This document shows positions 33,772 through 36,922 of a DNA stretch of 64,000 bases, in pieces. Where the stretch lies: NCBI GenBank assembly GCA_013112535.1, contig JABFGI010000002.1:372001-436000 (forward strand), read 5' to 3'. The position numbers and the translations under genes are program-made. The stretch comes from Pseudomonadota bacterium (lineage in GTDB: Bacteria; Pseudomonadota; Gammaproteobacteria; Eutrophobiales; Eutrophobiaceae). A model generated the notes under the pieces. It had not been told where the DNA came from and did not search any database. It was given only the letters and a program-made list of their open reading frames with translations. Position 1 is the stretch's first letter. Each line of letters begins with the position of its first letter.

Positions 33772-35583
33772 TTGGATCATAATATCTTAATTTCGATTGC
33801 CAGCATTGGTGTATTAGGCATTGGTTGTCAATGGCTCGCATGGTGGGCACGCCTTCCTGCAATACTGTTTCTTTTAATTGGTGGAATTATAGTCGGTCCA
33901 GTACTCGATTTAATTGAACCGGATATTTTATTTGGCGACTTGTTGTTTCCTATTGTTTCTTTGTCTGTCGCAGTTATTTTGTTCGAAGGAAGCCTGACTC
34001 TTAAATTTGAAGATATTCGTGGTCATGGCAAAACAGTAAGAAATTTAATTTCAATTGGCGCAATTATTACCTGGATAATAATTGCCTACAGCACTCACTA
34101 TTTAATCAACTTTCCTTTTGAACTCGCATTTTTATTTGGTGCTGTAGTTATTGTTACGGGCCCAACCGTCATAATTCCTATGTTAAGAACGGTTCGCCCT
34201 AATGCCAAAATTGCTAACGTACTTCGTTGGGAAGGTATCGCGATTGATCCGCTTGGTGCTTTACTTGCTGTTCTGGTTTTCGATTTTATTATTTCAGGAC
34301 AACAAAATAATGCGATAAATATAATTATCCTGACTTTTGCGAAAATTATATTAACGGGATTTTCTATCGGTTTTATTAATGGCTGGTTTTTAGGTGAATT
34401 ATTACGCAAGCAACTTGTACCTCAATATTTACGTAATGTGATTACACTTATTACTGTGGCAGCAGTCTATGTTTTATCTGACACAATAGAGCATGAATCT
34501 GGATTGCTTGCTGTCACTATTATGGGCATGACCATGGCAAATATGAAAGACATGGATATCGGCGACATACTTGATTTCAAGGAAAGCTTGAGTGTTCTGT
34601 TAATTTCGGGACTTTTTATTATTCTCGCTGCACGAATTGAATTTTATCAATTTATTCAAATAGGCTGGCCCGCCTTCGGTATTCTTGCTATCACGATGTT
34701 AATCGCAAGACCCATTTCAGTATTTGTCTCTTCTATCGGTTCAGATTTGTCGATTAATGAAAAACTGATGATCTCCTGGATTGGACCACGCGGTATTGTT
34801 GCAGCAGCTGTATCCGCACTATTTGCATTACGTCTGGAAAATGCTGGCTATCAGGAAGCAACATTACTCGTCCCTCTTACCTTTCTAATTATCATTGGAA
34901 CCGTAGTCATTCAAAGCGCAACGGCAAGTTTTATTGCTGTTTTGTTAGAAGTACGCGAACCCTCTCCAACCGGTATTTTAATTATTGGAGCGGGTAATGT
35001 AGCACGTGCAATTGGCAAGGAACTTCAGGCACAGGGTTTTAAAGTAGTATTAACTGACAGCACTTGGGAAAATACCAGTCTGGCCAGAATGGAAGGCTTG
35101 GAAACGTATTATGGTAATCCCATTTCAGAGCATGCAGATCGGCACCTTAACTTACTCGGTTTGGGAAAAATATTGGCTATGTCGGGTCGAGGAAGCCTGG
35201 ATGCGCTGGCTTGCCTACGTTTCAAATCTGAATTTGGCGTGAATAATGTCTATGAATTAAAGACCTCTCGAGAAAAACATATTTCTGATAAACATATAGT
35301 TTCAACCCGGCACCGCGGTTATGAACTATTTGGAGAAGATATTGATTATGGCAATCTGGCCTATCGTTTAAGAAATGGCGCTGAATTAAAGAGCACTCAA
35401 TTAAGTGATGAATTTACATTTGAACAGTATCTGGAAAAATATGGAGATCGTGTTATTCCAATGTTTGCCGTTGATAACAAGCAACGATTACAGATTTTTG
35501 TATCAAATGGGGAGATGAAACCAGAATCAGGATGGACTATTACAGGGATGATAGAAGCCGAATTACCAACAACAAACTCTTAA
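33772..35583 (+). CDS. Cation/proton antiporter (CPA family) with TrkA-N/RCK domain
   Basis: 603 residues. About 12-13 membrane segments (1-390) with VTGPTVIIPMLRTVRP and GIAIDPLGALLAV, the conserved Asp-bearing ion-binding helices of monovalent cation/proton antiporters. It is followed by an NAD-binding Rossmann domain (about 400-520; ILIIGAGNVARAIGKELQ) and a short C-terminal part. The start appears to be TTG at 33772. It probably exchanges Na+ or K+ for protons, with nucleotide gating. The CRP sites and sRNA candidate lie directly downstream. Confidence 0.9.
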   Translation: MDHNILISIASIGVLGIGCQWLAWWARLPAILFLLIGGIIVGPVLDLIEPDILFGDLLFPIVSLSVAVILFEGSLTLKFEDIRGHGKTVRNLISIGAIITWIIIAYSTHYLINFPFELAFLFGAVVIVTGPTVIIPMLRTVRPNAKIANVLRWEGIAIDPLGALLAVLVFDFIISGQQNNAINIIILTFAKIILTGFSIGFINGWFLGELLRKQLVPQYLRNVITLITVAAVYVLSDTIEHESGLLAVTIMGMTMANMKDMDIGDILDFKESLSVLLISGLFIILAARIEFYQFIQIGWPAFGILAITMLIARPISVFVSSIGSDLSINEKLMISWIGPRGIVAAAVSALFALRLENAGYQEATLLVPLTFLIIIGTVVIQSATASFIAVLLEVREPSPTGILIIGAGNVARAIGKELQAQGFKVVLTDSTWENTSLARMEGLETYYGNPISEHADRHLNLLGLGKILAMSGRGSLDALACLRFKSEFGVNNVYELKTSREKHISDKHIVSTRHRGYELFGEDIDYGNLAYRLRNGAELKSTQLSDEFTFEQYLEKYGDRVIPMFAVDNKQRLQIFVSNGEMKPESGWTITGMIEAELPTTNS

Positions 35584-35607: not shown

Positions 35608-35623
35608 TGTGACTGTTGTCACA
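35608..35623. promoter_or_regulatory. CRP/Vfr-type binding site 1
   Basis: TGTGA-N6-TCACA, a perfect match to the CRP core, inside a longer palindrome (ATTTTGTGAC/GTCACAAAAT). Its centre is 50 bases (about five helical turns) upstream of site 2. Confidence 0.65.
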
Positions 35624-35657
35624 AAATAACGACAGACAGACATTGTTCACATTAAAT

Positions 35658-35673
35658 TGTGAGATCCATCACA
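35658..35673. promoter_or_regulatory. CRP/Vfr-type binding site 2
   Basis: A second perfect TGTGA-N6-TCACA, centre 35665.5. A TAGAAT -10-like box at 35695-35700 predicts a start near 35707, which puts this site at about -41.5, the classic class II CRP-activator position. Confidence 0.7.
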
Positions 35674-35694
35674 TCAGATATTAAATCGTTCCAC

Positions 35695-35700
35695 TAGAAT
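35695..35700 (+). promoter_or_regulatory. -10 element of the sRNA candidate
   Basis: TAGAAT, one change from TATAAT. No good -35 hexamer lies 16-18 bases upstream, as expected for a promoter that needs an activator at -41.5. Confidence 0.5.
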
Positions 35701-35706
35701 TCAAAC

Positions 35707-35813
35707 CACTAGCAAACAACATATATCCTCCTTAAAAATGATTGTGAGCAAAGTCTGGAGTTACACATAACCCTCCTCCCCCATGTGTGTTATGAGTCTC
35801 CAGGCTTTTTTTT
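35707..35813 (+). ncRNA. Candidate CRP-activated small RNA with two anti-Shine-Dalgarno segments
   Basis: A predicted transcript of about 107 bases between the antiporter and the convergent kinase gene, with no protein frame worth calling. Near its 5' end, TCCTCCTTA (35726-35734) is complementary to a perfect Shine-Dalgarno. The 3' part folds into a long terminator stem (arms about 35752-35771 and 35789-35806, with internal mismatches) whose loop carries CCCTCCTCCCCC (35771-35782), followed by eight T (35806-35813). C/U-rich single-stranded loops plus a U-tail are the layout of trans-acting repressor sRNAs. The start is inferred from the -10 box and CRP spacing. I do not recognise it as a named family. 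Confidence 0.6.
35752..35813 (+). terminator. Strong intrinsic terminator of the sRNA candidate
   Basis: Outer stem CTGGAG (35755-35760) with CTCCAG (35798-35803), extended outward by T-G, G-C and A-T pairs. Inside, either CATAAC/GTTATG or ACACAT/ATGTGT can pair. It ends in GCTTTTTTTT. On the minus strand there is no T-run, so it does not serve the convergent kinase gene. Confidence 0.85.
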
Positions 35814-35845
35814 ATGCCTGTAAGAAATTACCCGTAATATTCTGC

Positions 35846-36922
35846 TTAAAAATATGTCACGTAGATATAAACGAACACTGCGAAAATAAGTGATATCGCG
35901 ACTGCAATTGCAAGATAAAGATTCTGTTTTTTCGTTTTAGATTCGCTGATACTCAGTTTTTTGTTAAAACTACCTGCCGCCAATCGCCACTGCGTTTGCG
36001 TGGAAACACTCGGATCTTCCAGCATAGTGCGCCATTCCTGAACAGATTGAGGCCTTTCCTTATGGTTACTTCTTAAAGCATGCTCTATCGCACGAAGAAA
36101 AAAAGTAGAATATTCCTTACTGTGTTTATCTAACTCATTCCAGATTTCGTTAATCGCTTCTTCACCTGTATAGCGATTTCGAAACGTGGAATCCATCGGT
36201 GGCTCTCCGGTAATGGCTTTATAAATAGTGGCTCCGAGAGAATAGATATCTGTCCATGGCCCTTGCATATCACTCCGACCATAATACTGCTCAAAAGGCG
36301 CATAGCCAGGCGTAACCACCTTGGTTAAGGTCATCGTCTCTTCACCGATAGCTTGTCGTGCCGATCCAAAATCGAGCAAAATTGCGGTACCATCTTCCCG
36401 TATAAAAATATTTCCGGGTTTTATATCTCGATGAATAAATCGGGCTTCATGCAACACTTCCAGTCCATCAATCAAACCCAGTAATAAATGCATTAATTCT
36501 TGTTCACCAGGTCGTCCATCTCTTAACAGCTTTTCATGAAAACTGATTCCATGCTCATAACTCATAACCATGTATGCTGTATTATTTGCTTCAAAGACAG
36601 AATAAACACGAACAATATTATCGTGGTTAAATTTGGACAGCGTTCTTGCTTCTCGAATGAAACGCTCCATTCCCCAAATCAACTTCTCATGCAACTCTTT
36701 GTTAATGGTCTGGACTGTATAATCATTACCGCGCCCGGCAATATCACGAGGCATGAACTCTTTGATGGCAACTTCTCTTTCGAGCGTATTATCCTGAGCC
36801 AGATAGGTAATACCAAAACCACCCTGACCAAGTACACTTTTTATCGTATAACACTGTAATTCGTAACCTATGGGTAAAGTTTTTGGTTCAATTTTAACAG
36901 GGGCTTCAGCCATGTTTGGCAC
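35846..36922 (-). CDS. Membrane-anchored Ser/Thr protein kinase
   Basis: 358 residues (GTG at 36922; an ATG at 36913 is equally possible). Hanks-type kinase domain (about 25-295): Gly loop LGQGGFGITYLA, catalytic Lys in VAIKEFMP, HRDIKPGNIF, DFGSARQ, and TPGYAPFEQYYG in the activation/P+1 region. A basic linker leads to one membrane helix at the very C-terminus (about 334-356), so the kinase faces the cytosol. It is a clear paralogue of the Sel1 kinase at 21.1 kb. No extracellular sensor domain is present. Substrates unknown. Confidence 0.93.
   Translation of the reverse strand: MPNMAEAPVKIEPKTLPIGYELQCYTIKSVLGQGGFGITYLAQDNTLEREVAIKEFMPRDIAGRGNDYTVQTINKELHEKLIWGMERFIREARTLSKFNHDNIVRVYSVFEANNTAYMVMSYEHGISFHEKLLRDGRPGEQELMHLLLGLIDGLEVLHEARFIHRDIKPGNIFIREDGTAILLDFGSARQAIGEETMTLTKVVTPGYAPFEQYYGRSDMQGPWTDIYSLGATIYKAITGEPPMDSTFRNRYTGEEAINEIWNELDKHSKEYSTFFLRAIEHALRSNHKERPQSVQEWRTMLEDPSVSTQTQWRLAAGSFNKKLSISESKTKKQNLYLAIAVAISLIFAVFVYIYVTYF

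Follow-up and report, generated by a model that had tools for sequence, protein, structure and literature searches.

The intergenic region described here lies in a 64 kb stretch of DNA, the whole of which was analysed and is referred to as the window. Most likely, it comprises the promoter and the gene of a CRP-activated, trans-acting small RNA (sRNA) of the Hfq type, which would block translation of its targets by anti-Shine-Dalgarno (anti-SD) pairing. Very probably, this RNA is switched by cAMP and prevents translation of other genes in much the same way as CyaR does in E. coli. Judged by sequence comparison, the RNA family with its class II CRP promoter is genuine and conserved, and it is absent from Rfam 15. 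In the literature searched, we found no earlier description of this RNA.

The original prediction placed two perfect TGTGA-N6-TCACA sites 50 bp apart in front of an sRNA candidate, and a sequence search confirmed both of them (Table 1). These two are the only perfect sites in the window, and the whole genome (3.05 Mb, 20 contigs) contains eight, versus two with a reversed-pattern control. It had also been suggested that CRP centred at -41.5 serves a promoter that lacks a good -35 element. The sequence agrees with this suggestion, since the gap between site 2 and the TAGAAT hexamer amounts to 21 nt and CATCAG, which occupies the usual -35 position of the sRNA promoter, is not -35-like.

Table 1. 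Features of the predicted sRNA locus and its neighbourhood (positions in the window)
Feature	Position	Strand	Remarks
Antiporter-like ORF	33772-35583	+	upstream of the CRP sites
Upstream CRP site (site 1), TGTGACTGTTGTCACA	35608..35623	.	perfect TGTGA-N6-TCACA; centre at about -91.5
Putative class II CRP site (site 2), TGTGAGATCCATCACA	35658..35673	.	perfect consensus; centre at -41.5
-10 hexamer TAGAAT	35695..35700	+	starts 21 nt past site 2
Predicted small RNA, about 109 nt	35707..35815	+	promoter gives the deduced start, terminator the deduced end
5' anti-SD segment UCCUCCUU	35726..35733	+	weak 5' hairpin, loop region
Intrinsic terminator hairpin with U-run	35750..35813	+	z -2.9
Terminator loop CCCUCCUCCCCC, second anti-SD segment	35771..35782	+	near-invariant in alignments
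Kinase-like ORF, convergent, next gene	35846-36922	-	downstream of the sRNA

The same intergenic region was present in eight related contigs, which were deposited as Thiotrichaceae or Gammaproteobacteria MAGs. For a wider survey, we used two covariance models (R1, R2), which were built on the transcript only, with the promoter excluded. R1 matched 26 of the 53 genomes of the order, and with the broader model R2 matches were obtained in 30 of these 53 genomes and in 16 of the 18 genera. Across the class, R2 matched 13 of 369 sampled genomes, nine of which are located outside the order. Beyond the order, the family extends to f140, f12, f133, and f92. Six of these nine matches combine CRP sites with a convincing structure, one (L127) has the structure without a site, and two (L133, L134) look false. 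Three weak, GC-rich matches without CRP sites (L133, L134, L141) are probably false positives. Rfam searches, which were carried out at gathering and at relaxed thresholds, returned chance matches only.

Since neither R1 nor R2 contains any promoter sequence, the upstream DNA provides an independent test. Here, we found a CRP site (at most one mismatch, within 175 bp upstream) at 34 of 36 loci, several of which share one genus and are, as relatives, not statistically independent; 0.32 sites were expected from dinucleotide shuffles. When offsets of 8-35 nt behind this site were scanned, TAnnnT was located exactly 21 nt after it at 31 of the 34 loci, whereas any other offset was seen at 10 loci at most. 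An offset of 21 nt corresponds to the class II (-41.5) geometry, and the predicted class II control of the sRNA by CRP is strongly supported. A second CRP site further upstream, again with no more than one mismatch, was detected at 21 of the 34 loci, and its distance from site 2 was 49-52 bp (12 loci), 39-43 bp (8 loci), or 32 bp (1 locus), which gives steps of about one helical turn. The proposal that both sites share the same face of the helix needs to be relaxed: the 50 bp found in the window equal 4.8 turns, which is not exact, but the clustering of the spacings in relatives (about 32, 39-43, and 49-53) roughly one turn apart fits a loose helical phasing. Two loci that were scored as members, L140 (genus g6) and L127 (f67), have no CRP site, and in genus g3 the single CRP site is displaced upstream by about 18 bp, which brings it close to the class I position.

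Additional copies of the sRNA were also observed. At L116:1735-1827, a diverged tandem second copy follows right behind the first one and has its own -10 element (TATAGT) and a degenerate CRP-like site. The g6 locus L140 (G008:C1:548554-548859) consists of two tandem diverged copies behind an antiporter gene, and it is the examined copy that lacks a recognisable CRP site. Another genome carries two copies (L117 and L125; G049:C2:432791 and C6:42999), which are identical over the stretch compared, and a transposase-like ORF is located upstream of L117.

Absence of a CRP/Vfr homologue from the genome had been named as a finding that would refute the original prediction, but such a homologue is present. 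P0001 is the one CRP/Vfr orthologue of the genome (323 bits vs. an equivalog cut-off of 266), its best solved relatives are Vfr structures, and 115 of 210 residues are identical to E. coli CRP. The cAMP contacts are kept (E72, R82, T127, S128) except for S83T. AR1 (156-164) and the DNA-reading residues R180/E181/R185 are identical to those of E. coli CRP, and in AR2 H19 and K101 are kept, with an H21K exchange. The genome also encodes cyclase domains of classes I and III as well as Hfq.

Alternatively, another regulator of the CRP/FNR family (FNR- or DNR-type) might read the two sites, so that the RNA would answer to oxygen or nitric oxide and not to cAMP. Besides P0001, the genome indeed encodes three or more proteins of the CRP/FNR family (L082, L083, L084) as well as further cNMP-domain proteins, and the motifs of these three additional HTH_Crp_2 proteins read as FNR- or DNR-like. 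However, L082 and L083 carry N-terminal cysteines and a recognition helix of the ETVSR/ESISR type, which presumably reads TTGAT-N4-ATCAA, and the helix of L084 is of the PGTLSR type. The SREMVGR helix of CRP/Vfr, which reads TGTGA, occurs in P0001 only. Moreover, genus g7, in which no CRP scored above the cut-off, yielded a single doubtful sRNA match and is thus also without a convincing sRNA. Taken together, we consider control by such a regulator distinctly improbable. For our preferred reading, activation by CRP, the genomes of genus g16 are an unfavourable observation, since they have CRP but no sRNA match.

The sRNA had been proposed to answer to cAMP or a Vfr-like signal and, by this means, to link carbon status to translation. 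The first part of this proposal is backed by the class II geometry of the loci and by the presence of CRP, cyclases, and Hfq. The link to carbon status is unsupported, since we found no PTS EIIA-Glc domain in the genome.

Perfect CRP sites were also observed in front of other genes of this genome. A second pair (L088:1501-1558; G000:C2:267961-268018), with sites 42 bp apart, precedes a PAS/GGDEF-like ORF (GTG at 1646) and is a candidate link from cAMP to c-di-GMP. Another perfect site (L092:1501-1516; G000:C8:28745-28760) precedes an ORF that reads as a fusion of cyclic-nucleotide-binding domains with a rhodanese-like domain, and a further one (L087:1501-1516; G000:C1:190430-190445) precedes a large ORF for a filamentous-haemagglutinin-like secreted protein.

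As predicted, no protein gene follows on the plus strand, where no ORF of at least 60 aa lies directly after the promoter. Among the neighbours of the sRNA loci we found nhaP, fabB, a kinase, lexA, and others. Site 1 is a perfect inverted repeat of 12-13 bp, which lies about 25 bp past the stop codon of the antiporter gene, and a terminator-like structure was called on the minus strand at 35630-35601. Thus, site 1 might be the terminator or the mRNA 3' hairpin of this upstream gene and not an activator site. However, a T-run is absent after site 1 on the plus strand, and relatives (e.g., L002 and L006) keep TGTGA...TCACA although the centre and the flanks change, which breaks the long palindrome. 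In addition, similar sites recur where fabB is the upstream gene. We therefore regard a mere hairpin function as very unlikely and prefer to read site 1 as a second CRP site.

In the window, the covariance model matched positions 35709-35814 with 103.4 bits, and over the 34 members the RNA length varied between 92 and 112 nt. The 5' hairpin is variable among the members and exposes an anti-SD segment such as ACCUCCC or UCCUCCUU, the unpaired probability of which is 0.99 in the window and 0.91 on average over the 34 members. In the terminator loop, the members carry CCCUCCUCCCCC or close variants, with a mean unpaired probability of 0.96. Double-sided changes were seen at 15 of the 18 pairs of the terminator stem, and 89.6% of the terminator-helix cells were paired, as compared with 69.9% in shuffles, which is well over the shuffled and the slid controls; these pair counts were made on an alignment (A4) that had been fitted to the structure by the model and leans towards its own structure. 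With a MAFFT alignment (A5), RNAalifold gave no structure because the alignment was poor, and the counts were therefore taken from A4. The standalone structured RNA, its intrinsic terminator with a U-run, and the Hfq encoded in the genome are traits of an Hfq-dependent sRNA. Most members have an ATG after the 5' anti-SD segment, but a short mRNA or a dual-function RNA that encodes a small peptide (in the window, MIVSKVWSYT) is hardly credible and was rejected, since the sequence preceding the ATG is anti-SD and not SD, the peptide (1 to 26 residues) varies in sequence among members, the ATG is missing in some of them, the small ORF is not conserved, and the compensatory changes in the RNA stem argue against a peptide-coding role.

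For the CRP-activated sRNA, we propose the following mechanism. The Vfr-like cAMP-CRP would bind to site 2 at -41.5, where it would replace the missing -35 element and recruit RNA polymerase via AR1 and AR2. Another CRP dimer, bound at about -91.5, would boost activation, probably via the free alpha C-terminal domain. The predicted transcript of about 100 nt would display two C-rich anti-SD segments, one close to the 5' end (UCCUCCUU) and the other in the loop of the terminator (CCCUCCUCCCCC), which would pair with the ribosome-binding sites of target mRNAs and block their translation. As modelled, the RNA is likely to act under CRP control on several mRNAs, with their Shine-Dalgarno sequences as pairing partners. 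When 12 genomes were searched strictly for targets (GGGGGAGG-N3-10-ATG), no conserved candidate emerged. The recurrent matches were the sRNA locus itself, and the only other match in this genome (L156) is antisense to a 197-aa ORF.

The RNA had been likened to CyaR and Spot 42. Spot 42 is repressed by CRP and is therefore a poor comparison. CyaR is an apt model as far as the mechanism is concerned, but not as a homologue. This enterobacterial RNA (RyeE, RF00112) is activated by CRP, depends on Hfq, and base-pairs with Shine-Dalgarno sequences, for example in ompX (PMC11795201). The cyaR gene of E. coli shows the same gap as here, with 21 nt from the end of its TCACA half-site to the -10 element (TATCAT); its RNA contains CACCUCCUUA, and the loop of the terminator carries UCUCCC. 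Thus, an anti-SD segment and a class II CRP promoter are common to both RNAs, but by analogy only. Compared with CyaR, our RNA has a much larger terminator loop and usually a promoter with two full CRP sites, and the neighbouring genes are nhaP or fabB instead of trhP (yegQ) and ogrK as in E. coli. RF00112 had no match in the window, whether at the gathering score or with E values as high as 10, or in 11 relatives (E up to 5), and R2 scored E. coli CyaR with 8.4 bits (E 0.16), which is no sequence-structure match, so that homology to CyaR is unproved. A far-reaching reading, which we consider unlikely, is that a single CRP-controlled anti-SD sRNA belongs, as an ancient core member, to the gammaproteobacterial cAMP-CRP regulon and that enterobacterial CyaR is its diverged descendant.

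Anti-SD sRNAs are also found in Rhizobiales (RFMSmelA075/A099, cuckoo RNAs), where hairpin loops present CCUCCUCCC as anti-SD and the stems vary (PMC3927594). Unlike the RNA described here, the cuckoo RNAs occur in alphaproteobacterial hosts and contain three or four such hairpins each. As for the promoter, the published CRP motif positions of E. coli are -41.5, -61.5, and -93.5 (PMC5957442). The centre of site 2 is the same as in E. coli class II promoters, and upstream CRP positions of E. coli cluster near -93.5 (PMC5957442). In contrast to the E. coli promoters, the present one belongs to an uncultured lineage, the CRP of which is Vfr-like, and its activation is predicted.

The wiring of CRP to an sRNA, which is known mainly from enterobacteria, would thus extend to uncultured gammaproteobacteria, and a ready covariance model is now supplied for an RNA family missing from Rfam. 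The one-turn spacing steps, the class I-like shift in one genus, and the absence from a CRP-less genus amount to a natural experiment in the evolution of class II promoters. Finally, the similarity to CyaR raises the testable question of whether the two RNAs have a common origin or have converged.
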